Source: an uncultured Muribaculaceae bacterium
Lineage (GTDB): Bacteria; Bacteroidota; Bacteroidia; Bacteroidales; Muribaculaceae
NCBI GenBank assembly: GCA_947625935.1
Contig: CANQQE010000028.1
Span: 1-44,034, forward strand
Direction of reading: 5' to 3'
Length of the DNA stretch: 44,034 bases
A model generated the notes under the pieces. It was not told the origin of the DNA, searched no databases, and saw only the letters and a list, made by a program, of their open reading frames with translations. A program made the translations under genes and the position numbers. Below, in pieces: positions 14,893 through 27,515 of the stretch. How positions within the stretch are numbered: position 1 is the first letter of the stretch; each line of letters begins with the position of its first letter.

Positions 14893-15942
14893 TCAGTTAA
14901 TTGAACGCCTGTTTAGCTCGGCTTGATAACGTCGCGCATTGGCCTGGTGGGTAGCGAAGTCAATTGCGAAGTTGTGGTAGCCGGAGAAGTCTTCCTTGGC
15001 GCACATATAGATGTAGTTGTGTTTTGGTGAATGGAGAACAGCGTCGATTGCTGATTTATCGGGAATCCTGATCGGACCGGGCGGCAAGCCGGTGTGCAGG
15101 TATGTGTTGTAGGCAGATTTCGTGGCCAGATGGTTACCTTTTATGCGGCGCAGGGAGAAATCACCTGTTGCGAACTTTACAGTCGGATCGGCTTGAAGTT
15201 TCATCCCCCGTTCAAGGCGGTTGATGTATAGACGCGCGACTTTGGGGCGTTCGTCGGCTTTCAGGGTTTCTTCCTCGACGATTGAAGCGAGTGTGGCGAC
15301 TTCGACGGGGGAGAGGCCGATATCGCGTGCGATTGCTCTTCTGTCGCTGTCCCAATAATCATTTCGGTATCTGAGTAGCTTGTTTACCACATTGTTGACA
15401 GGGGTGCTCCAATAAAATTCATAGGTGTCAGGAAGAAATGCAGCGGTGAATTGTGGTGTCGTAAAGCCGTGTTTAGGCAAAATGGTGTCGCACGCATTAA
15501 TGAAATCCTCTGAAGACCACTCCATTTTAGATGAGAGCTTTGACGCAAGGTCGGAGAGTGTGCGGATGTTGTTGAACGTCAACCTAACGGGGGTCTGCGC
15601 CCCATTTTTTAGCGTCCGAGCCGCTCTCCAAGCCATAGTCGAATGGTCGATGCGATAGGCTCCATGCGCAATCGCGGGGTCTCCTCCCATCCAACTCCAT
15701 AGCCGATAAACCCTGGGGCCGAAATCGTTGCCAAGGGCATTGCGGAGAGAGTCGCTTACCGCTTCGGATGTGGCCCCCGCCGGGATATGCACCCAGGTTG
15801 TCTCGCCGCGGTAACCCACTAATGAAAATTGCCATAGCGCCACGCTGCCGACGATGAGCAATGCGATTATCGCACCACCGGCATAAGCCCATTTGAGCGG
15901 ATTTTTTCGTGTAGTTGAGTTGTTCTTATTGTTTTTTGCCAT
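14893..15942 (-). CDS. mltG: Endolytic transglycosylase MltG
   Basis: A 349-residue peptidoglycan lytic transglycosylase that cuts nascent glycan strands and sets their length. A short basic cytoplasmic tail and a single membrane helix (about 17-40) lead into the periplasmic YceG domain. The catalytic signature ASIVEEET (E223) is followed by KVARLYINRLERGMKLQADPTV and by TYLHTGLPPGPI, both strongly conserved in MltG. Length is normal. A TATCTTTG -7 box at 15954-15961 suggests a promoter of its own, so it need not belong to the efflux/two-component operon ending 46 bases upstream. Confidence 0.95.
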   Translation of the reverse strand: MAKNNKNNSTTRKNPLKWAYAGGAIIALLIVGSVALWQFSLVGYRGETTWVHIPAGATSEAVSDSLRNALGNDFGPRVYRLWSWMGGDPAIAHGAYRIDHSTMAWRAARTLKNGAQTPVRLTFNNIRTLSDLASKLSSKMEWSSEDFINACDTILPKHGFTTPQFTAAFLPDTYEFYWSTPVNNVVNKLLRYRNDYWDSDRRAIARDIGLSPVEVATLASIVEEETLKADERPKVARLYINRLERGMKLQADPTVKFATGDFSLRRIKGNHLATKSAYNTYLHTGLPPGPIRIPDKSAIDAVLHSPKHNYIYMCAKEDFSGYHNFAIDFATHQANARRYQAELNRRSIN

Positions 15943-15988: not shown

Positions 15989-17275
15989 TTATTTGGGAAA
16001 ATTGATGGTGAACCGTGTCAGGTTGTCGGAGGGGGATGTCGTCAGAGAGAAGCGGCAATTGTGGTTGCGGAGTATGTGCCTGATAAGAGTCAGCCCAAGC
16101 CCCTGTCCTGATGGTTTGGTAGTGAAAAACGGGGAAAAAAGATGTGTGGCTTTGTCGGATGATATGCCCTCGCCATTGTCAGTAACCGTAACAGTGCGTT
16201 CGCGTGAGTCGGTGGATATCTGGATATAGGTTGTGCCGTCACTCTCAATCGCATTTTTCACAATATTGATCATGACCTGTTCAATCATAGGAATATCTAT
16301 CTCGGCTATGAATGGTTGGGTGGCGATTTGTGGGCGTAATGTTACGCCGGCTTTAGTGCAGATTGAATCGAGAAGTATCAATGACGAATCAATTACCGAA
16401 TTAATATCTGCCGGAATCAGTGACGGTTTTGGAATTTTGACAACTTCGGCGTAGCGGCTGATAAAAGAAGATAATGCTGAGGAATGCTCGCGGCAGGCGT
16501 CGATGGCGGTTACAGCATCATTGGCCGAGTCATCGCCTTCAAACGTAAGTTTTATTGCGTCGAGAGTGGCGTTGACGCTCCCGATGGTGTTGTTGACCTC
16601 ATGCGCCATCAGCCTTATTATGCGTTCGTAAGCCTTGCGCTCAGCCGAAGCGACCTCGGCGGTTAAGATTTCAACGGTGTAGAATGTATGTGGGTACCCG
16701 TTGTCGATGAATGCCAAACGGGAGCAGCGATAGATTTCAGCATCGCTTAGCCTGACAATTTCATGTTCGTTCAGTCTTAGAGCTGCGAGGCATTTGATAA
16801 GTCGGTTGTCAATCTCGTTTAATTTTTTTGACTTTACCTGCTCTCTGAATATCTTTGAAGCCATAGAATTACATAGCGTAATTCTATTGTCGCCGTCGAC
16901 CATTATTATCGCTAAAGGTGACGCTTCCACTATCAGATTGAAAAGGTGGTTCTGCTCTTGCTGTTGTATCTGTCGTTTGCGCAGCTCGTCGATCAGGGGG
17001 TTAAATGTGTCGATGATGTTGTCGGCTTCATATTGCCCGACGTGCCTTAGATGAGTTGAAAAATCCTGAGATTTCAACAGCCCGATCCCATTGGCAATCG
17101 CTTTTAAGGGTTTCAGTACCAAACGGTAAAAAAGAATGATGAAAAAGATGGCCATGATAACCATGCCTTCGGCCACATAAAAAGCCGCTTCCTGATTTGC
17201 GGAATGAAACAGCAGCAGTCCGCACAACGTGACAAGCAGCAATATCAGGATCGTAAATATGTGGATTATCTTCAT
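15989..17275 (-). CDS. Membrane sensor histidine kinase partnered with the NtrC-type regulator
   Basis: A 428-residue kinase. Two membrane helices (about 5-25 and 31-53) enclose almost no periplasmic domain, so it may sense a signal in or near the membrane. A HAMP-like linker (about 54-105) and a PAS domain (about 108-195) follow. The H-box is LMAHEVNNTIG with phospho-acceptor H225. The ATPase domain has an N-box (NIVKNAIE, about 337-344), a G1 box DNGEGIS and a G2 box GQGLGL (about 390). The H-box type HEVNN is like that of NtrY/NtrB kinases. The start codon overlaps the stop codon of the regulator gene (ATGA), so the two are translationally coupled. Confidence 0.93.
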   Translation of the reverse strand: MKIIHIFTILILLLVTLCGLLLFHSANQEAAFYVAEGMVIMAIFFIILFYRLVLKPLKAIANGIGLLKSQDFSTHLRHVGQYEADNIIDTFNPLIDELRKRQIQQQEQNHLFNLIVEASPLAIIMVDGDNRITLCNSMASKIFREQVKSKKLNEIDNRLIKCLAALRLNEHEIVRLSDAEIYRCSRLAFIDNGYPHTFYTVEILTAEVASAERKAYERIIRLMAHEVNNTIGSVNATLDAIKLTFEGDDSANDAVTAIDACREHSSALSSFISRYAEVVKIPKPSLIPADINSVIDSSLILLDSICTKAGVTLRPQIATQPFIAEIDIPMIEQVMINIVKNAIESDGTTYIQISTDSRERTVTVTDNGEGISSDKATHLFSPFFTTKPSGQGLGLTLIRHILRNHNCRFSLTTSPSDNLTRFTINFPK

Positions 17276-18597
17276 CTCAGATGGTATTTGTCCATGCGTC
17301 GGTATAGTGCCTGTCGTGTTATTCCGAGGTGAGCCGCGGCTTTCGACAGATTACCGTCGAAACGATCGATGGCTTCAACGATTGTGTCGCATTCAAGTCT
17401 GTCAAGTGTGGGTTGTCTTCCGCATGAGGTTGATGTGGCGGGAAGTAGTAGTCGAATGTCCTTTGCTTCAATATTCTTTTTCCGGCATATAATGGTAATG
17501 CGCTCCACAATGTTTTTAAGCTCTCGGATATTACCGGGATAGGGTAGTGACGACAGTATCTCCATGGCATCGGGAGTGAAGCGGGGCGCAGGGATTCCGG
17601 CATCGTTCGCGGAGGTCTCGGCGAAATGACGGACCAGCAATGGAATATCATTGCGACGGTCTCTTAAAGGGGGAATGGTTAGTGTGATCAGGTTTATACG
17701 GTAAAACAAATCCTCTCGGAAACTTCTGTCTGCCATCATTGATTGCAGGTCGGCATTGGTAGCACAGATTACTCTGACATCAGTCCTGCGAGACTTGCTG
17801 TCGCCGAGCGGCTCGAATGTGTGTTCCTGAAGCACTCTAAGCAGTTTGACTTGGCAGGCTACATCGAGATCTCCGATTTCGTCGAGAAAAATCGTCCCCG
17901 TATCGGCCAATTCAAACCGGCCGATACGGTCGGCAACGGCTCCGGTAAATGCGCCGCGCCTGTGACCGAACATCTCACTTTCAAACAATGACGGCGATAT
18001 GCCTCCAAGGTTAACCTTTACAAACGGCTTGTCGCTCCTTTTTGAATTTCGATGAATGGCTTCGGCAATCAATTCTTTTCCAGTGCCGTTTTCGCCAAGA
18101 ATCAGCACTGACGCATCGGTCGGGGCTATTCGGGCACAGATGGAAAGGACATCTTTTAAGGAGTCGGTCTCGCCAATGATTCCACAACGGTCAAAGCTGT
18201 TGTCATTTCCCTGAATCGGTTTTTCCCGTCTTAGGGTAGTGACGGTTTCGATCAGACCGAGTAAATGGCGGTTGTCCCAAGGCTTGGTTATAAAGTCTAA
18301 CGCGCCAGCTTTCATTCCCTCAACCGCCAATGGAATGCTTCCCCAGGCGGTCATGAGAATCACAGGAGTGTCGGGGGCGAAAATTTTCACTTTGCGAAGG
18401 AGTTCCAGCCCTTCTTTGCCTGAGACAGTGCTACCGGTGTAGTTCATATCCATCAATATGATTGCAGGAGTTGTATGTCGCACAACTTCGAGTGCCTCAT
18501 GGGGTGAGGCGACAGCGAGACATTCGTATCCGCTGCGATTGAGCACAAGTTTCAGGGATGCCCTGACTGATTTGTCGTCGTCAACTATTAAAATCAT
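17272..18597 (-). CDS. Sigma-54-dependent response regulator, NtrC/AtoC type
   Basis: A 441-residue transcription activator in three parts. The receiver domain (1-120) has acidic residues D6-D8, phospho-acceptor D50 and K105. The AAA+ domain (about 137-370) has Walker A GENGTGKE (168-175), the sigma-54 contact loop GAFTGA (215-220) and Walker B LDEIGDL. The Fis-type helix-turn-helix (about 403-441) ends in [26 protein letters not shown] shows it activates sigma-54 promoters. The only sigma-54-like promoter I found here lies upstream of this same operon, with two palindromes suited to a Fis-type dimer. The gene is 18 bases after the TolC gene, so the operon probably controls itself. Confidence 0.95.
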
Positions 18598-18615: not shown

Positions 18616-20088
18616 TTATCGGACAATTCGGTCAAAATCCTCGTCGATGTCGGTGTCGTCGACAAAATCCCAAAGTGTCAAGCCGCGCAATTGGTAAAAA
18701 TATAGCCAGTAAAGGTATAATTCGTTTATATAAGCGGCTTTAGCTTCATCTTTTTTCACCTGGGAATCATTCAGGTCCAGTGTGGATATTTTGCCGAGCG
18801 GGAAGGTCTTGACATTAGTGTCATAGCGGGTAGCGGCTATCGCATCGGCGGAAGCGGCGATATCCACCTGTTGTTGCTGATTGTTGAACCTCTCGACAAG
18901 AATGAAGAGGTCTTGTCGGAAATTAAGGTTCTGTTGTCTTAACTGGCTTTCGACAACTTGTCGGTTGCTCTCGGCCATTTTCACTTTTCCCCGGCGTTTG
19001 CCCCAGTCGAGAATCGGTATTGAAACGCCGATTTCCACAACTTGATTATCTTTCAACCGATTGTATGCGCCTGAAAATTCATTGTCGGTGCCTGTAAAAC
19101 CGATTTGTGCGAACAGATTAATCCGCCGTAAGTCTCCTTTGGCTTTGGCGACGGCATAATCGGCTTCGAGCTGCCGGCGACGGGTGTTGAGCGTTACAGA
19201 GTTGTTGCGCATCGCTTTTTCAAGGGCATCGTCGTAGTTAATGGCAATCGGTCGCACTTCGTCGGGTATGAGGGGGACAACCGTGTCATTATCGTCAAGA
19301 GCGAGGAATGATCTTAGCGAGAACATTGCGCTTTTTTCGGTGCTTTTGGCTGATGTGAGTGTCGACCTGGCTTCGAGTCGATTCAATTCCATCTGAAGCA
19401 GGTCGTTTTTGCTGATTTTTCCCATTGACCGTTTCACTTTTGCTACTTCGTAAAGTGTTTCGGCGTTGTCAAGATTTTGTGAGGCAACGGCCACCGCCGA
19501 CTGAGCTAAAAGCAAGTTGAAGTAGGCGGTTATGGTTTCCATCGCGACTCGTTCGGTCGCTTCCAGATAATCGGCTTGGGCTTCGCGGTATTTCACGGGT
19601 TCGATGCGTTTGTCCCATTTCAATGTATTCACGCCAAACAGGGGCTGTGTCAGAGTCAGTGCGACGGGGAGCGACATAAAGCGGCTATCTTTAGACCCGT
19701 CAAGCTGTTTGAGATAGTTGATGGTTGAGTTAAGCGACAGTTTTCCCCCGGTGAGCGGTATGTTCTGATCTATTGACACAGAGCCGTTGATTTGAAGGTT
19801 GTTGTCGCGGACAAATGTAAAGCTGCCGTCTTCGAGTTGGTAGGCACTGTATTTTTTGTTGTAGGATGGCAGTGTGGCCGAGAAGCTGACTTCGGGTAAA
19901 AATTGCGCCTTGTAGGTTCTATATTCCCAATATGAGGCTTTCAATCTGTTTAGAGCGACAGCGGCATCGACGCTTGACATACGAGCTATTGCAATGGCTT
20001 CATCGAGGGTGACCCGGCGCGTTGTCGCGCCGAGTCCCTCTGACAGAAGCATGAAGAAATAGATAAAAATTGACAGTCTGAATTTCAT
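18616..20088 (-). CDS. TolC family outer-membrane efflux channel (efflux system 2)
   Basis: A 490-residue outer-membrane factor with a signal peptide (about 1-21) and two OEP repeats dominated by long helices. I chose the ATG at 20088 because it gives a clean signal peptide and a 7-base gap from the ATPase gene; an in-frame start 30 bases upstream would put ten hydrophilic residues ahead of the signal. It is the exit duct for the ATPase/permease/adaptor genes just upstream. It is only weakly like the TolC protein of system 1, so the two channels are probably not interchangeable. Confidence 0.88.
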   Translation of the reverse strand: MKFRLSIFIYFFMLLSEGLGATTRRVTLDEAIAIARMSSVDAAVALNRLKASYWEYRTYKAQFLPEVSFSATLPSYNKKYSAYQLEDGSFTFVRDNNLQINGSVSIDQNIPLTGGKLSLNSTINYLKQLDGSKDSRFMSLPVALTLTQPLFGVNTLKWDKRIEPVKYREAQADYLEATERVAMETITAYFNLLLAQSAVAVASQNLDNAETLYEVAKVKRSMGKISKNDLLQMELNRLEARSTLTSAKSTEKSAMFSLRSFLALDDNDTVVPLIPDEVRPIAINYDDALEKAMRNNSVTLNTRRRQLEADYAVAKAKGDLRRINLFAQIGFTGTDNEFSGAYNRLKDNQVVEIGVSIPILDWGKRRGKVKMAESNRQVVESQLRQQNLNFRQDLFILVERFNNQQQQVDIAASADAIAATRYDTNVKTFPLGKISTLDLNDSQVKKDEAKAAYINELYLYWLYFYQLRGLTLWDFVDDTDIDEDFDRIVR

Positions 20089-20095
20089 TGTGAAT

Positions 20096-20770
20096 TTATT
20101 GAACTTGGCGTCCGTCAAAAAAACGGATGATCCGGTTGGTTAACTTCGCCTGGTTTTCGTTGTGGGTAACCATCACTATAGTGCGATGGTCGTCGGTATT
20201 GAGCGAATGCAGTATTTCCATGATTTCAGCTCCCATTTTAGAGTCGAGGTTCCCGGTAGGTTCGTCAGCGAGAATTATTTTGGGATTCCCTACTATGGCT
20301 CTTGCAATTGCGACACGCTGGCATTGACCGCCGGAAAGTTGAGACGGATAGTGGTTGATTCTGTGGGCAAGTCCAACACGTTCCAGCACCTTCATGGCGA
20401 GTTCACGTCTACGTTTGGCGGGCGTGTTTCGGTAAAGTAACGGAATCTCGACGTTGTCAATGACGTTTAACGAGTTTATTAGATGGAAATTCTGAAAGAC
20501 GAAGCCTAACTCATTGTTGCGGAAACGTGCAAGTGAGCGATCGCTCATGGCTGATGCTTCGACGCCGTCAATTTTAACCGTCCCAGACGTGGGTCGATCG
20601 AGAAGCCCGATGATGTTGAGCAGTGTCGATTTACCACAGCCGGATGGCCCCATGACGGAGACAAATTCCCCTTCGTTTATGCTGAGATTGACGTTTTCAA
20701 GAGCAAGAGTCTCTATTTCTTTTGTGCGATAGAGTTTGTTTATGCCGGTTAAGGATATTATGGTATTCAT
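20096..20770 (-). CDS. ABC transporter ATP-binding protein, MacB/LolD type (efflux system 2)
   Basis: A 224-residue nucleotide-binding subunit. Walker A GPSGCGKST is at 41-49, LSGGQCQR at 145-152, Walker B ILADE at 166-170 and the switch histidine at H203. It powers the two FtsX-type permeases encoded upstream. It sits 36 bases after the second permease gene and 7 bases before the TolC gene in the sigma-54 operon. It is a paralogue of the ATPase at 3430-4098, with the same length and motif layout. Confidence 0.93.
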   Translation of the reverse strand: MNTIISLTGINKLYRTKEIETLALENVNLSINEGEFVSVMGPSGCGKSTLLNIIGLLDRPTSGTVKIDGVEASAMSDRSLARFRNNELGFVFQNFHLINSLNVIDNVEIPLLYRNTPAKRRRELAMKVLERVGLAHRINHYPSQLSGGQCQRVAIARAIVGNPKIILADEPTGNLDSKMGAEIMEILHSLNTDDHRTIVMVTHNENQAKLTNRIIRFFDGRQVQ

Positions 20771-20806: not shown

Positions 20807-22114
20807 TTATTCCTCTTTGAGGGAGTATGCGATGTCGGTGTTCGCTATTTTGCGAGCGGGGAGGTATATGCCGACAGCCACTGCGATAGACATCAGTATG
20901 AGAATTATTGCGGCAATGATTGAAAAGTGAACCCAAAAGTGGGATACCCAGGATTCGTTTAATAGATATGAGACGTTGGCATGGCTTGCGGCAAGGCCCT
21001 CTTTTAGCGCATACTGCATAAATATCACGCATCCGGCCGCCCAAGTGACAAATGTCAGAATCAATCCTTCGAGAATCATGGTGACGGCTATGCGTGATGG
21101 CGATGCCCCGAAGGCTTTCATAATGCCGGCCTCAGTGCTGCGTCGTCGGGTCTGCAGGTAAAATGTCCCTACGACTCCGAGAAAAAGATTTATGAGGAAA
21201 AATGTCGCAAGGGCTGAGCCAATGCGCTCTGAGTTGGATATCCCCCACGCTTCCTCGATGTCACGTTTATTTTGCAATAACGACGAGATTTTTGAGACAT
21301 AGAAATTTCCAGCTTTGAGGCTGTTGGCCCATTCAGTGTTATCAGTGACAAATTTCTCGGAATCAACACCTTGTTTAAGTCTCAGCATAATGCTGAATCC
21401 ATCGTTGACGGGCATTTTAGTCCCGTCGAACTCCCTATCGCCAGTGGGTCGACATGGGCGAAAATACATTGTGGTGACATTCATGGGACTTTTTGGTCTC
21501 ACATCGTCAATAACGCCGACCAGCACGGTTTCGACTCCCCAATGTGGAACCGTCACGCGCCCAACGGCATTTTCGTCGTGGAATAACCGGCGCGCCAACT
21601 CTCGCGTGATAACTATTTCATTGTCACTGAATGGCCGAGAGTCAAGGTCGGCAATATCGGTTTTCGGGTCTGAGGCGGTTATACCATGGGTTGAAAAGAA
21701 CCCGGTGCCGGGGACGAAGAACATTTTAATAGGAAATACTGTGTCGGTCTCTGTGCTGAGTGATTGAGTCATCATTCCCTCGCCTTCAAGCGACTGTCCG
21801 TCGGCAATAGGTGTGACGGATTGTACTTGCGGATTTTCGGCGGCCATAGAGAGCAGTCTGAAATAGTCGTCAATCACGGTTACCGAATCGGAGGCTGCGG
21901 GGTTGTAGCGGTAGGTGCCTTCAGAAGTGGCACTCACGGACAGGAGCACGAGGCGGTCAATGTCGTATCCCGGGGATGAATTACGATCATAGACACTCAC
22001 CACAAGAGGGTCGATGATAATCCATGCTAAAATTGCTATAATTATCAACTCTACCGTCAGCCATCCGTTGACCGCACGTCGGTTCCAAAGATTTTTAAAT
22101 ACGAATCGGATCAT
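20807..22114 (-). CDS. ABC transporter permease, FtsX/MacB type (efflux system 2, second permease)
   Basis: A 435-residue inner-membrane subunit. One N-terminal helix (about 18-40), a periplasmic MacB-like domain (about 45-285) and three C-terminal helices make the FtsX plan. The coupling loop reads RRRSTEAGIMKAFGASP near 330. Compared with system 1 permeases the loop is less typical, so this subunit has diverged. It lies 14 bases after the first permease and 36 bases before the ATPase gene. A heterodimer with its neighbour is likely. Confidence 0.88.
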   Translation of the reverse strand: MIRFVFKNLWNRRAVNGWLTVELIIIAILAWIIIDPLVVSVYDRNSSPGYDIDRLVLLSVSATSEGTYRYNPAASDSVTVIDDYFRLLSMAAENPQVQSVTPIADGQSLEGEGMMTQSLSTETDTVFPIKMFFVPGTGFFSTHGITASDPKTDIADLDSRPFSDNEIVITRELARRLFHDENAVGRVTVPHWGVETVLVGVIDDVRPKSPMNVTTMYFRPCRPTGDREFDGTKMPVNDGFSIMLRLKQGVDSEKFVTDNTEWANSLKAGNFYVSKISSLLQNKRDIEEAWGISNSERIGSALATFFLINLFLGVVGTFYLQTRRRSTEAGIMKAFGASPSRIAVTMILEGLILTFVTWAAGCVIFMQYALKEGLAASHANVSYLLNESWVSHFWVHFSIIAAIILILMSIAVAVGIYLPARKIANTDIAYSLKEE

Positions 22115-22128
22115 ATAATACTATAGTT

Positions 22129-23427
22129 TTAACGTTTTTCATTAAGGGATTGGACTATTGGATGACGCAGGGTCCACCATGAGGGGATGAGCGATGAGGC
22201 GATGTTGAGAATCAACGCGGCAATGAGGACTATGGCAAACAGGGTTGGCGACAGTAGCATCTCGGGGGAAAGTTCAGGGACAGAGTCGTATGCGTTGACC
22301 CAACTGTCGGAAATCGTGAAAATCCATTGGCGCGAGAAGTAAACCGCAACATATGACAGGAACAAACCGGCAATCGCTCCCAAAAGCGTCAGAATGAAAT
22401 TTTCGACCATAAGCTGCCATAGTAATCCGGAACGCGACGCCCCAAATGATTTGCGTATGGCTATTTCTCCACTGCGCCGGTTAATGCCGCCGATAATTAG
22501 TCCGCTCAGGTTCATCGCCGGGACCAACAGCAGAATTAAAGCCACTATGGCGTAATAACCCAATGTTTTTGCATCTTTGGCGTTTCCGTCCTCATCGACA
22601 TAGGCAGAGCCGAATGTCTGTTCGTAATGAGTGTAGGGCTGATTGAATATGTAGTGTGTGACATCGATGGTGGAGTCGCTTTTGCGTATGTGCTCGCTGA
22701 TTTCTGCTTTTAAATCGTCAATTGTTTTGCCGGGTTTTATGAGGAACACTGCTATATATGGCCCGACATCTCCATCTTTGTCATATCCCGGTATCGCGGT
22801 GTAGGGGAGAAAAGCCTCACCAAAGGAATTCGCAGAGATTGCGCTGCCGGGTTTTACCACTCCGATTACTTTTGTCGATTTGAAGTTTACTTCAATTTCA
22901 CGCCCAATGCTCGCTTCAGCGTTCCCAAACAACTCATCAGCCTTATTCTGATTGAGAACCGCTACATTGCGCCCTGCCGCGATGTCATCTGGAGAAAACG
23001 GAACGCCGGCTATAAATTCATAGTCATATACTTTAAAGAAATCAGGGTTGGTGAATTTGGTCACTGCGTTATACAGTATTTCTTGTCCCGGTATCATTAT
23101 TGTGGCCGGTTGGTCGGAGTCACTGATGACAGCAACTGCGTCAGCCGACTTTAAATCGGACAGCCAGTTTTTAACAAGAGTGTGTGACATGTAATACTGT
23201 GACATTCCCGAACCATCTTTCTTTGTGGCTCGAACCTGTTGCAGATATGCCATGCGGTCACGGTTGTTCTCAGGGTAGATTGGCGATAATTTGACGTGGT
23301 AGATAATTGACAGCACCATAACGGTGGTGACTGCCAACGCCACGCCCGAGATGTATAAGGCGGTGTTGAGCGGTGCCGTCTTAATCTGGGTCAGCGCCGA
23401 CCGGATTAATTGTTTTGTTGTAATCAT
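22129..23427 (-). CDS. ABC transporter permease, FtsX/MacB type (efflux system 2, first permease)
   Basis: A 432-residue permease with a leading helix (about 17-45), a periplasmic domain (about 50-275) and three further helices. The coupling loop NRRSGEIAIRKSFGASR precedes the third helix. The motif RKSFGAS is characteristic of the Bacteroidetes FtsX/MacB permease family. The start codon overlaps the adaptor's stop codon (ATGA), so adaptor and permease are translationally coupled. Substrate unknown. Confidence 0.9.
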   Translation of the reverse strand: MITTKQLIRSALTQIKTAPLNTALYISGVALAVTTVMVLSIIYHVKLSPIYPENNRDRMAYLQQVRATKKDGSGMSQYYMSHTLVKNWLSDLKSADAVAVISDSDQPATIMIPGQEILYNAVTKFTNPDFFKVYDYEFIAGVPFSPDDIAAGRNVAVLNQNKADELFGNAEASIGREIEVNFKSTKVIGVVKPGSAISANSFGEAFLPYTAIPGYDKDGDVGPYIAVFLIKPGKTIDDLKAEISEHIRKSDSTIDVTHYIFNQPYTHYEQTFGSAYVDEDGNAKDAKTLGYYAIVALILLLVPAMNLSGLIIGGINRRSGEIAIRKSFGASRSGLLWQLMVENFILTLLGAIAGLFLSYVAVYFSRQWIFTISDSWVNAYDSVPELSPEMLLSPTLFAIVLIAALILNIASSLIPSWWTLRHPIVQSLNEKR

Positions 23428-24671
23428 TTTATTTTTAAATTGTTGTGTGATTGATATTTTTTCATGTTTGATGTCACAATTGTCTCTCCGGGGGTCAGGC
23501 CTGAGATGACCTCAATATGATCGTAGTTCCCGCCGCCGAGGGTTATGGTGCGTAGTTTCAGTTCATCGTCGCCGCTAAGCACATAGATATTGTATTGCCC
23601 CGGTCCTGAATAGGATTGTATGTTTGGTATTATTACCGCACTGTCAATCAGTTCGCTGACAACATGGACATCTACCCTTAATCCCGGCCTCAACTTGAGT
23701 GAATCGCCTTCGACCAATGCTACAGAAAATTGCACTAATCCGTTGGATGATTGTGGTTTTACGCTTATGATGCGTCCTAATCCGCGTTTTTTCCCTATTG
23801 ATACGATTGCTTTTGCACCCGGTTGTATTAACTCGGCATAATTGTCGGAAGTCTCGCTATCGACTTTGAAATGTGTCAAATCGGCAATGGTAGCAATCGC
23901 ATCGCCACGGGTCACGGATTGCCCCACGCTACCATTGACAATGGTGATAACCCCGTCAAGCGGCGACAATATACGAGCATTATTCAGAAGGCGCGACTGA
24001 GCGTCGAGCGAGCGTTGCGCTATGCCCAATTCAAATGTGCCGGTGCGTTTTCTCATGTCGGCTGACGATTCTATGTTGACAAGCTGACGGCGCAATTGCT
24101 CAACTTCAAGCATAGCGGTCTTGTAGGAAAGTAACGATTGCCGGACACGGTCGCCTGTGCCAGAGCCAAGGCTGTCGAGGTAACGCTCGTTTTCTACTTC
24201 AACTTTGAGTTTATCGACCTCCATTTCTTTGACTTTTATACGCATAAGAATGTCGTCAATCTGATTGCGGTCGGTCAAATGCTGCTGCTCGATTGCCAAA
24301 GCCGCCATGCTTCTGTTGTCGGCCATTTTTTCGACTTCGGCCTGGGTGTCATTCAAATCGAGTTTCATTATTGGGGTTCCTGCAGTAACCGAATCACCCG
24401 GATAATGGTATATTTCGACAATTCTTGACGCTATCGGGGAGGTCACTATTTCTTCACGGGAAGGAGCTACCCGACCGGTGCATGAAATTGAGATTTCGAT
24501 ATCCCCTTGCCCAACGGTGGCAAACTCCAGCTCGGAACGGTCGACGGTTTTCCGCATGGTGTTGGTTGCTAAGGCTATCGCCGCTACCACAGCCGCTGCA
24601 GCCGCACCGATAATAATCAGCTTGCGTCGTCGTTCGCGATTCAGTTGTTCTTTTGGTATTTTTTTGTCCAT
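23424..24671 (-). CDS. Periplasmic adaptor protein, HlyD/MacA type (efflux system 2)
   Basis: A 415-residue membrane-fusion protein and the first gene of the sigma-54 operon. The N-terminus is basic (KEQLNRERRRK) with one membrane anchor (about 15-35). It then shows a lipoyl half-domain, a long coiled-coil hairpin (about 105-215), the second lipoyl half (SPLDGVITIVNGSVGQSV) and a beta-barrel with LRPGLRVDV. I chose the ATG at 24671 because the sigma-54 promoter lies just upstream at 24698-24713. A longer reading frame (to 24788) would place the promoter and an operator palindrome inside the coding region. The predicted leader is only about 16 bases. Confidence 0.9.
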   Translation of the reverse strand: MDKKIPKEQLNRERRRKLIIIGAAAAAVVAAIALATNTMRKTVDRSELEFATVGQGDIEISISCTGRVAPSREEIVTSPIASRIVEIYHYPGDSVTAGTPIMKLDLNDTQAEVEKMADNRSMAALAIEQQHLTDRNQIDDILMRIKVKEMEVDKLKVEVENERYLDSLGSGTGDRVRQSLLSYKTAMLEVEQLRRQLVNIESSADMRKRTGTFELGIAQRSLDAQSRLLNNARILSPLDGVITIVNGSVGQSVTRGDAIATIADLTHFKVDSETSDNYAELIQPGAKAIVSIGKKRGLGRIISVKPQSSNGLVQFSVALVEGDSLKLRPGLRVDVHVVSELIDSAVIIPNIQSYSGPGQYNIYVLSGDDELKLRTITLGGGNYDHIEVISGLTPGETIVTSNMKKYQSHNNLKIK

Positions 24672-24697
24672 ATTAATAATCTTTGCTGAAAATATAT

Positions 24698-24713
24698 TGC
24701 CAATACCGTGCCA
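24698..24713 (-). promoter_or_regulatory. Sigma-54 (-24/-12) promoter of the efflux/two-component operon
   Basis: The minus strand reads TGGCACGGTATTGGCA. The sigma-54 consensus is TGGCACG-N4-TTGCA, so only one base differs and the spacing of the invariant GG and GC pairs is exact. Transcription would start about 24687, 16 bases before the adaptor start codon. The operon's own regulator carries GAFTGA, the sigma-54 contact motif. Confidence 0.85.
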
Positions 24714-24757
24714 AAAATGTAATGCTCTGATTATCAGAAGTGGCATAGACGTAATAC

Positions 24758-24795
24758 TGTACGAATCCGTACAGATTGATGTACGCAAGCGTACA
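24758..24795. promoter_or_regulatory. Twin palindromic activator sites (enhancer) for the NtrC-type regulator
   Basis: Two perfect inverted repeats of the same form, TGTACGAATCCGTACA (24758-24773) and TGTACGCAAGCGTACA (24780-24795), share arms but not the 4-base spacer. Their centres are 22 bp apart, about two helical turns. They lie about 79 and 101 bases upstream of the predicted sigma-54 start, a normal position for enhancer-binding activators. Identical arms and helical phasing make a dimer-binding operator much likelier than chance. Confidence 0.8.
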
Positions 24796-24881
24796 AATCG
24801 GACTTTCTTGTCGTTTTTAGTAAATTTGTATTATCTCTGACTGTCGTCTAAGATACTTTCGCTCGGCAAAGTTCAAATAAA

Positions 24882-24914
24882 TTTGGCTTTGCTCTCGACT
24901 TATTCGTATCTTTG
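24882..24914 (+). promoter_or_regulatory. Housekeeping promoter of the DUF6377-like gene
   Basis: TTTG (24882-24885), 21 bases, then TATCTTTG (24907-24914): full consensus. The predicted start near 24921 leaves a leader of about 27 bases. Confidence 0.65.
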
Positions 24915-24947
24915 TCAGAAATAGTTTAATTCCATTTGAAATCAAGC

Positions 24948-26525
24948 ATGACTAAAACGATAGCCATAGTTATAGCGATATTTTTTGCAATTTTCAATCT
25001 TCACGCCATAAAAGTCTCTGACCGGCAAGTCAAGCAGGCTCTTGAACGGTTAGACAAGGAACTTGCCCGAAGGGGAACGTACATATCGGCTCGTCAGTCG
25101 AGGATAGATTCACTTAATAATGACCGACTTGGAGCGAATACGCCCGGACGGTTACTGAAAACCACGATGGAACTTGCCAATGAGTACACATCTTTTAATA
25201 ATGATTCAGCAATATTCTACTACGATCAAGGCTATCGGAAGGCCGTCGAGTTGAATCTTGACTCGCTGGCTAATGTTTTTAGACTTAAACGAGCTACCTA
25301 TATGCCTTTGGCTGCATTTATCGATGAATCGATAAGAGAATATGGCCGAATTGACACCTTGTCAATGGACGATGATTTGAAAGAGCTATACTATGACTCC
25401 GGCCGTCAGCTCTATTCCTATATTTCATCTTTTTACGCGAGTTATCCGGAGTTTTATGAGCTTTGGCATAGGAAAAGCATGGTTTCGCAGAAGTCACTAT
25501 TGAACCATCTGGATCATACGTCATCAAAATTTAAGTTAAATAAGGGGGAGTACCATTTTGCTCATCAAGAGTACTCAAAAGCAAAAGCCATCCTTGTCGA
25601 TTTGCTGAGCCGCCTGCCTGAAGATGACAACCTATATGCCCGCGCTTCGCACATACTCGCTGATATAGCCAAAGCCCGCGGAGAACACAACGAGTATGTG
25701 TATTATCTGACGTTGTCGGCCATCTCTGACATCAAGGGCGCAACGCTTGAGGTTATGTCGCTTCAGGAGCTTGGAGAATTGCTATTCGGTCTTGATGACG
25801 TGGACCGCGCGCACCGTTATCTGTCGACGGCTCTTGCGAGCGCGGTGGCTTGCCACGCATCAATGCGAATGATTCAGTCATCGTCGGCTTTGCCGGTAAT
25901 CGAAGAAGCTCACAGCGTTGAGGTCAGTAAATGGCGTAAACGCATTTATCTCGTGCTTGGCGGGTTGGCATTAGTGATACTGTTGCTTGGATGCGTGTTG
26001 TTGTTTCTTAGGCGCGAGATGCACAAGATGAGTGTCCTACAAGGGAAACTCAAAAGTGCAAATGACGTTAAAGAAGTGTATATAAGCCAATTCCTTAACC
26101 TGAGCTCAATATACATGGATAAATTGAACCAGTTTAGCGAGACAGTAAACAGAAAAATCACCGCGAATAAAGTCGATGACCTGTACAAGATAACTAAATC
26201 AGGCAAATTTGTCGAGGAGCAAAGCAAGCAGTTTTACGAAGTTTTTGATAATGCGTTTCTTCATATTTATCCCACGTTTGTGGAGTCGATAAACAATTTG
26301 TTGAGACCTGAGGCGCGCATAGAGTTGAAAGAAGGTGAGCTGCTGAATACGGATTTGAGAATCCTCGCATTCATGAGACTTGGAATCAAGGAAAGCACTC
26401 GTATAGCGCAGGTGTTGAACTATTCGGTGCATACGATTTACACTTATCGGAATAAGTTGAGAAATAGTGCCTACGACCGTGATAATTTTGAGAGTGAGGT
26501 TATGAAAATAAGCTCAATATCATAA
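24948..26525 (+). CDS. DUF6377-like membrane protein with TPR-type sensor and C-terminal helix-turn-helix
   Basis: A 525-residue protein with a signal peptide (about 1-21). A helical, TPR-like extracytoplasmic part follows (about 25-320, with repeats such as AKAILVDLLSRLPEDDNLYARASHIL split over helices). One membrane helix lies near 328-348, then a cytoplasmic coiled coil, and a C-terminal domain with a LuxR-like helix-turn-helix (about 465-512: STRIAQVLNYSVHTIYTYRNKL). This is a common Bacteroidetes layout for membrane-spanning transcription regulators. The ligand is unknown. The ATG at 24948 was chosen over an in-frame TTG four codons earlier. It is divergent from the sigma-54 operon and may share its control region. 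Confidence 0.75.
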   Translation: MTKTIAIVIAIFFAIFNLHAIKVSDRQVKQALERLDKELARRGTYISARQSRIDSLNNDRLGANTPGRLLKTTMELANEYTSFNNDSAIFYYDQGYRKAVELNLDSLANVFRLKRATYMPLAAFIDESIREYGRIDTLSMDDDLKELYYDSGRQLYSYISSFYASYPEFYELWHRKSMVSQKSLLNHLDHTSSKFKLNKGEYHFAHQEYSKAKAILVDLLSRLPEDDNLYARASHILADIAKARGEHNEYVYYLTLSAISDIKGATLEVMSLQELGELLFGLDDVDRAHRYLSTALASAVACHASMRMIQSSSALPVIEEAHSVEVSKWRKRIYLVLGGLALVILLLGCVLLFLRREMHKMSVLQGKLKSANDVKEVYISQFLNLSSIYMDKLNQFSETVNRKITANKVDDLYKITKSGKFVEEQSKQFYEVFDNAFLHIYPTFVESINNLLRPEARIELKEGELLNTDLRILAFMRLGIKESTRIAQVLNYSVHTIYTYRNKLRNSAYDRDNFESEVMKISSIS

Positions 26526-26915: not shown

Positions 26916-27515
26916 ATGAATAAAGAGTGTCAAAAAATAGATATAGGCCAACGAACCCATCTGAGTGTAAAGCTAAGATGGCATGGGAAAGTAGACCTTG
27001 ATTTGTCGGCATTTATGCTAAACAAGGATGGTTATATCGACAATGAGTCGGATTTAGTGTTCTATAACTCGACCCATCGAAGCGAAAACTTTGACCCTGA
27101 GCGATATGCCAGTGAGGAAGACTGGATTTCAAAAACCGTGCCCATTTCGGCTGACTCATCATTGATCGGTGCTACCGATGCTGAAGGTATCATTGACGGA
27201 CGCTCTGTTGAAACGATGTCGCTTGACCTGCTGAATGTTAATGAAAATATCTGTAGAATAGTGTTTTGCGTGTCTATTTTTCAATCAAAGCTTTATGGCG
27301 TGGATGAAAATGGGCAACTTCAATCAGATATTTCTCTAATTGACTCTGATACGGGGGAGGTGCTGTCGTCCTTCGCTTTGGATGCGCTGGACGGCTCGGT
27401 GACTTCGACTGAAACGTATGATTTTGAGCGGATACCTAACTATGGATGGGAATGTCGTTTATGCAATGTGACCCATGATGGCGGATTGCACTCTATTATA
27501 GATAAATATGTGTGA
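26916..27515 (+). CDS. TerD family protein
   Basis: A 199-residue cytoplasmic protein of the TerD/CABP family, linked to tellurite resistance and general stress. Family landmarks are LSVKLRWHGKVDLDLSAFMLNKDG near the start, DLVFYNSTHRSE, then the acidic calcium-binding style segment. A final beta-rich part holds FALDALDGSVTSTETYDFERI. Usual TerD operons carry several ter genes; here it stands alone ahead of an unrelated acidic protein. A -7-like TAAGTTTG lies at 26880-26887. Role in this organism not known. Confidence 0.85.
   Translation: MNKECQKIDIGQRTHLSVKLRWHGKVDLDLSAFMLNKDGYIDNESDLVFYNSTHRSENFDPERYASEEDWISKTVPISADSSLIGATDAEGIIDGRSVETMSLDLLNVNENICRIVFCVSIFQSKLYGVDENGQLQSDISLIDSDTGEVLSSFALDALDGSVTSTETYDFERIPNYGWECRLCNVTHDGGLHSIIDKYV

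Follow-up and report, generated by a model that had tools for sequence, protein, structure and literature searches.

What controls the efflux operon whose first gene begins at position 24671 of this stretch, and does that operon encode its own activator? The question arises from the region at 24698-24795, which the original prediction read, within the whole 44,034-nucleotide stretch analysed (the window), as a sigma-54 promoter preceded by twin palindromes. The promoter (TGGCACGGTATTGGCA, 24698-24713, minus strand) was located by a sequence scan, and sites of the same type occupy the same place in relatives. From 24713 to 24698 the minus strand reads TGGCAC-N5-TGGCA, confirming the predicted match; it has GG-N10-GC within TGGCAC-N5-TTGCW and one mismatch to the longer consensus TGGCACG-N4-TTGCW. 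Judging from the -24 GG, transcription would start at 24687 on the minus strand, and the ATG of the first gene, at 24671, lies 16 nt past this point. Two candidate activator sites lie upstream on the same strand: a proximal palindrome (TGTACGGATTCGTACA, 24758-24773), which starts 60 bp upstream of the T of TGGCAC, and a distal one (TGTACGCTTGCGTACA, 24780-24795), which starts 82 bp upstream. Both are perfect 16-bp copies of TGTACG-N4-CGTACA with identical arms and with centres 22 bp apart. Counted from a +1 near 24687, these centres are located at about -78.5 and -100.5, in agreement with the 79 and 101 bases given earlier.

Downstream of the predicted start, seven minus-strand genes are closely packed, with gaps of -23 to +36 bp. 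They encode a periplasmic adaptor of the HlyD/RND_mfp type (23424-24671; Pfam HlyD_3, NCBIfam TIGR01730 above cut-off), two MacB/FtsX-type permeases (22129-23427, Pfam MacB_PCD and FtsX, overlapping the adaptor gene by 4 bp; 20807-22114, Pfam FtsX and MacB_PCD, after a gap of 14 bp), a LolD/MacB-like ABC ATPase (20096-20770, Pfam ABC_tran, after a gap of 36 bp), a TolC-type outer-membrane channel (18616-20118, Pfam OEP in two stretches, with the true start probably within the ORF), an NtrC-family response regulator (17272-18597) and a sensor histidine kinase (15989-17275). A gene for an MltG/YceG endolytic transglycosylase (14893-15942, minus strand) follows 46 bp after the kinase gene and is possibly co-transcribed. 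The regulator has the features of an NtrC-family activator, i.e., a phosphorylatable receiver (D50), an AAA+ domain with GAFTGA at residue 215, and a Fis-type HTH (HTH_8), so the GAFTGA motif and HTH ascribed to it earlier are both present; by sequence, its closest PDB entries belong to the NtrC family of regulators. The genome contains one rpoN match. There are 9 PF00158 matches genome-wide, and a pattern scan placed a GAFTGA-type loop only in the window's regulator and in a second sigma-54 activator on another contig (L005, C15:5785-6285). In two further proteins, L006 (C90:497-940) and L007 (C56:2350-2787), the best Pfam domain is Sigma54_activat, without GAFTGA.

Taken alone, the promoter match is unremarkable, because TTGGCACG-N4-TTGCW at one mismatch or fewer occurs at 16 sites in the genome versus 8 for the reversed pattern. 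Within the window, a promoter scan at two mismatches found 8 sites versus 6.66 in the control, and a palindrome scan at up to two mismatches found 2 versus a shuffled mean of 1.15, a control that does not take in the exactness of the arms. The exact palindrome is present in the whole genome (3,693,617 bases searched) only as these 2 copies. No dyad above 7/10 was present within 110 bp upstream of any of the other 15 sigma-54-like sites of this genome. The combination of promoter and dyads is thus above chance, since it is unique among the genome's 16 sites and recurs in relatives.

To follow the arrangement across relatives, we searched the genome collection with the regulator and took the best 80 loci, in which regulator identity is 56-64%. 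In many of the related efflux operons among these loci, a sigma-54-like site immediately precedes the first gene. With a score of at least 11.5 (on a sigma-54 matrix) and a distance of up to 200 bp from the starts of the adaptor, TolC, permease 1, ATPase or regulator genes, we obtained 47 sites in 45 of the 80 loci. A dyad of the form TGTNCG-N4-CGNACA, matching at 9/10 or better within -84 to -45, accompanies 46 of the 47 sites, before efflux genes and in 44 of the 45 loci. The 47 sites, the window and a same-genus locus (L094) were aligned on the T of TGGCAC. In this alignment the dyad starts at -60 or -61 in 33 of 48 sites (window included), the window's own being at -60, and the distal site in the -60 class of relatives is usually degenerate or a half site. 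Nine sites, all before TolC genes, form a second class, in which the best dyad lies at -47 and usually another at -70. Counted without any promoter condition, exact dyads number 45 in 1,426,645 bases, in 40 of the 80 loci, versus 1, 1, 3, 0 and 2 in five shuffles, and a sigma-54 site lies downstream at one of a few fixed offsets for 39 of the 45. At three loci where regulator and adaptor genes are divergent (L024, L048 and L080), the dyad sits between the two genes.

A strong promoter site is lacking at 35 loci; in 10 of these, a weaker promoter-like site accompanies a dyad of at least 9/10 at a distance of 60-61 bp, which brings the module to 54 of the 80 loci (44 with strong and 10 with weaker sites). 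The other 26 have no dyad of at least 9/10 with a promoter-like site. Two of these (L023 and L061) have an 8/10 dyad at 60-61 bp; a third, L033 (B. fragilis Q1F2), has a good sigma-54 site before TolC without a dyad, and a scan of its whole genome for the TGTCCG composite described below was also negative. The remaining 23 are a mix of absent upstream DNA, unrecognised efflux genes and real absences. Closer to home, in genome G001 of the same genus the dyad is shortened and -12 has GT in place of GC, and two further genomes of the genus, one of them just 68% complete, gave no adaptor match at E 1e-40.

We also searched 248 genomes of the window's family for a composite consisting of the dyad, 28-58 bases and TGGCA. 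The exact TGTACG pair was found in 1 of the 248, the window's own genome, and was therefore rejected as the conserved unit; the looser dyad TGTNCG-N4-CGNACA is conserved instead, so that the palindrome pair sought in related genomes holds in its relaxed form and fails in its exact one. The TGTACG-type composite is found in 13 of the 248 (reversed control, 4 of 248); leaving aside G183, the 12 other genomes, own genome included, look real, all of them with a copy ahead of a gene for an adaptor or TolC. The TGTCCG-type composite occurs in 59 of 248 (reversed control, 7 of 248). Of its 70 match lines, a few of which look spurious by eye, 30 were followed up as loci; together with 14 TGTACG-type loci (the window's two excluded) these make 44, of which one at a contig edge (L150) was left out, giving a second set of 43. 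Its dyad lies at 59-62 in 38 of the 43 and the site is directly before an efflux gene in 39, the adaptor gene in 37. Six of the 43 repeat the first set (L153, L154, L155, L183, L184 and L186 equal L089, L057, L083, L048, L069 and L084, respectively) and 37 are new. The window's genome has one other TGTCCG composite, on contig C52, which is absent from its 16 one-mismatch promoter matches. A stricter composite (TGTCCG dyad plus TGGCAY-N5-TTGC), searched in 393 genomes of the order, was found in 4 versus 0 in the control and is too strict to give a prevalence.

Between the proximal palindrome and the promoter lies a further element that had been overlooked in the first reading. The consensus for IHF is WATCAR-N4-TTR, and AATCAGAGCATTA (24720-24732, minus strand) matches it at 9/9, which is the arrangement expected of an IHF-assisted promoter, with the IHF-like site between activator site and promoter. 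In the first set, a match of at least 8/9 is present in 27 of the 35 sites whose dyad lies at -59 to -62 (window included), 25 of them exactly at -19, compared with a shuffled mean of 1.8 (sd 1.4); in the second set it is present in 28 of 38 (25 at -19) versus 2.9 (sd 1.7) after shuffling. The IHF-like element is thus part of the conserved cis-module. In the nine sites of the -47 class the best IHF score is 6/9, over a shorter stretch; these loci, with the -47/-70 geometry upstream of TolC and without the IHF-like element, are L016, L018, L019, L025, L036, L037, L039, L052 and L060. It is as if the shorter distance had removed the need for a bend. The window's genome has 7 matches to HU/IHF-family genes.

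Judged by its sequence, then, the cis-module is conserved in Bacteroidales, and the predicted wiring, i.e., a sigma-54 promoter with paired sites and an operon that includes the activator gene, gains strong support from the same spacing before related efflux operons. In several lineages the module appears to reach further. Among 24 genomes with regulator relatives, 18 have the TGTCCG composite, with 35 matches (reversed control, 0 of 24); of the six others, two have the TGTACG type and four (the genomes of L033, L061, L078 and L082) have neither. We inspected 30 of the 35 matches as loci, 10 of these sites being already in the first set. Efflux genes follow at 21 of the 30 (10 adaptor, 3 ATPase, 3 permease and 5 TolC), a DUF3836 gene at 3 and a DUF2807 (head-GIN) lipoprotein gene at 3, and 3 look spurious. 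The small secreted proteins behind dyad and TGGCA are L121, L137 and L141 (DUF3836) and L122, L146 and L147 (DUF2807), one protein per group having been assigned by Pfam and the rest by eye from translations. The six promoters are less certain because their -12 departs from TTGC, reading TTGA, TTGT or TTGG. Since the module stands before separate efflux operons and before DUF3836 and DUF2807 genes, the regulator probably acts in several Bacteroides-type genomes on a set of envelope genes beyond its own operon and would thus run a regulon there. In the window's genome only the regulator's own operon carries the module.

Whether the operon's regulator is the protein that recognises the dyads was approached by comparing half-sites with recognition helices. 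Base 4 of the half-site is A only with TRQ helices (9 of 30 half-sites versus 0 of 64) and T only with SRA helices (20 of 50 versus 0 of 44). The helix class changes just 3 times on the regulator tree, so this association is inseparable from phylogeny, and a test on independent pairs was uninformative. We regard binding of the dyads by the window's regulator as likely.

It could instead be that another protein, either a repressor or the second GAFTGA activator, binds the dyads and that the operon's regulator acts elsewhere. Such an activator does exist, and binding by the operon's regulator is a prediction. However, the dyad stays beside regulator or efflux genes even where gene order is rearranged, and the other 15 sigma-54-like sites of the genome, including those before ClpB, Clp ATPase and GroES genes, lack a dyad above 7/10, which makes it probable that the second activator acts at sites of another kind; we regard this explanation as unlikely. 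Four of those dyad-less sites, L100 (C12:59083), L101 (C14:17126), L109 (C47:10552) and L111 (C55:9016), precede genes resembling those for ClpB, a second Clp ATPase, GroES (Cpn10) and an FKBP-type isomerase, both Clp names having been given by eye. They likely form a separate sigma-54 proteostasis set, which would agree with PMC9723704 and PMC12316311, and the second activator is a candidate regulator for it.

The palindromes might also act as RNA hairpins or as terminators of a neighbouring gene rather than as protein sites. In several relatives (L014, L026, L029 and L045) the dyad does continue as a GC-rich hairpin with a T run behind it, and there it may also serve to terminate the upstream gene. 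Neither palindrome of the window has a T run behind it, and the neighbouring gene at 24936-26525 is divergent and so needs no terminator there; the terminator reading of the window's palindromes was rejected on these grounds. With the offset from dyad to -24 nearly fixed in relatives as well, a hairpin role is very unlikely. Nor need the palindromes serve that neighbour, which encodes a DUF6377 protein on the plus strand, because a perfect Bacteroides-type housekeeping promoter, TTTG-N21-TANNTTTG, lies ahead of it at 24882-24914 (plus strand). A TerD-domain gene (26916-27515, plus strand) adjoins the DUF6377 gene. Finally, the -24/-12 match could be fortuitous and a housekeeping promoter could drive the efflux operon. 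The excess of one-mismatch sigma-54 matches over the control rate is, genome-wide, only about twofold. The Bacteroides-type housekeeping consensus has no exact match on the minus strand between 14800 and 25100 and one match at 1 mismatch, at 24877. Against a fortuitous match, dozens of genomes have sites of the same type at the same place and dyad offset ahead of related operons, which makes this last account extremely improbable.

We consider it very probable, instead, that 24698-24795 controls an efflux operon that depends on sigma-54 and activates itself. In the mechanism we propose, the operon's sensor kinase would phosphorylate its NtrC-type response regulator, and the activated regulator, as dimers, would occupy the two 16-bp palindromes, which at 22 bp apart are on the same helical face. 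A protein of the IHF/HU type would bend the DNA at WATCAR-N4-TTR just upstream of -24, and the GAFTGA loop of the regulator would then remodel the sigma-54 holoenzyme at -24/-12, such that transcription fires near 24687. The predicted transcript would run through the adaptor, two permeases, ATPase, TolC, regulator and kinase genes, resulting in positive autoregulation. In other lineages the same module would also serve separate efflux operons and the two kinds of secreted-protein gene, as a regulon.

By hydropathy, the kinase (PAS_8, H225) has two abutting hydrophobic N-terminal segments, at residues 1-28 and 29-61, with almost no periplasmic loop. Two such segments are present in 15 of 20 kinase relatives sampled at every fourth locus; in L025 and L037 the start codon is apparently too far in, and L021, L045 and L081 have one segment. 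Because there is almost no periplasmic domain, the kinase probably picks up its signal inside the membrane or via the transporter, which is the weakest step of the argument, and a membrane-active compound may be the inducer. The envelope-stress or toxin response put forward in the first reading is a conjecture.

The regulator resembles the NtrC, ZraR, AtoC and CbrB types in its order of receiver, AAA+ (GAFTGA) and Fis-type HTH, in the upstream sites and in the IHF-like site before -24/-12. It differs from them in its half-site and in having its gene inside a pump operon, and it scores below cut-off in all 25 NCBIfam models listed (NtrC, 389/559 bits; AtoC, 379/714; ZraR, 340/760). In Pseudomonas putida, CbrB, IHF and sigma-N activate an operon resembling an RND-type pump, according to PMC6296734, which also quotes the NifA upstream activating sequence as TGT-N10-ACA. 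The window's dyad formally conforms to TGT-N10-ACA but has four extra fixed bases (TGTNCG-N4-CGNACA), and the regulator, unlike NifA, is a response regulator with a receiver and stays below the cut-off of the NifA model (323/529 bits). Among efflux systems, MacAB-TolC and ADOP share the MacB_PCD and FtsX permeases, ABC ATPase, adaptor and TolC channel; here, however, the ATPase is encoded apart from the permeases, of which there are two. The NCBIfam MacB cut-off was not reached by the ATPase (231/966 bits) or by permease 1 (55/966), and the ADOP cut-off was also not reached.

A further comparison is with the Bce modules, whose regulators are of the OmpR type. These modules (BceRS-BceAB) combine, in Firmicutes, an ABC transporter with an adjacent two-component system that has an intramembrane-sensing kinase, and their translocator has one unusually large extracytoplasmic loop, as described in PMC3023708. 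The window likewise has, by hydropathy and Pfam, an intramembrane-type kinase beside an FtsX-type ABC transporter. Unlike in Bce modules, its regulator is of the Sigma54_activat/HTH_8 rather than the OmpR type, and in place of the translocator with one large loop there are MacB_PCD/FtsX permeases plus a separate adaptor and TolC channel. For signalling from transporter to kinase, the likeness to Bce is one of gene content.

Sigma-54 circuits had been thought little described in gut Bacteroidales, and in this respect the Bacteroidota prove less blank. A sigma-54 regulon has been mapped in Flavobacterium psychrophilum, with protein-quality, envelope-stress and gliding genes (PMC9723704). Closer to the present operon, PMC12316311 (2025) predicted, by matrices, sigma-54 promoters on COG0577/FtsX-like permeases in Bacteroidia; it calls its result the first evidence of this link and states that activator specificity is not available for all of its organisms. 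The gene class and sigma factor are the same as here; in addition, we propose the activator, its site and the spacing. The terms 'palindrom', 'UAS' and 'upstream activat' are absent from the main text of that paper in a term search. No description of the dyad TGTNCG-N4-CGNACA with its fixed architecture in Bacteroidales was found among the openly licensed literature matches listed.

Tentatively, and as a possibility for which we would claim no great probability, Bacteroidales may share an undescribed sigma-54 envelope-defence regulon with a code of its own, consisting of TGTNCG-N4-CGNACA at -60, an IHF-like element at -19 and -24/-12. The kinase of its NtrC-type regulator, lacking a periplasmic sensor, would read the state of the MacB-type exporter, so that the system would be a Gram-negative, sigma-54 counterpart of Bce that would also bring secreted proteins with DUF3836 and DUF2807 under its control, within the same defence. 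More generally, the conserved module turns the reading of one genome into a concrete, testable cis-regulatory code common to many gut Bacteroidales, with activator, site, spacing and targets, and ties MacB-type exporters and two secreted families of unknown function to one sigma-54 two-component system. The dyad/promoter pattern also serves as a search tool for promoters of this kind in other genomes. Were the inducer identified, possibly a membrane-active compound, one would learn how these abundant gut bacteria detect it.
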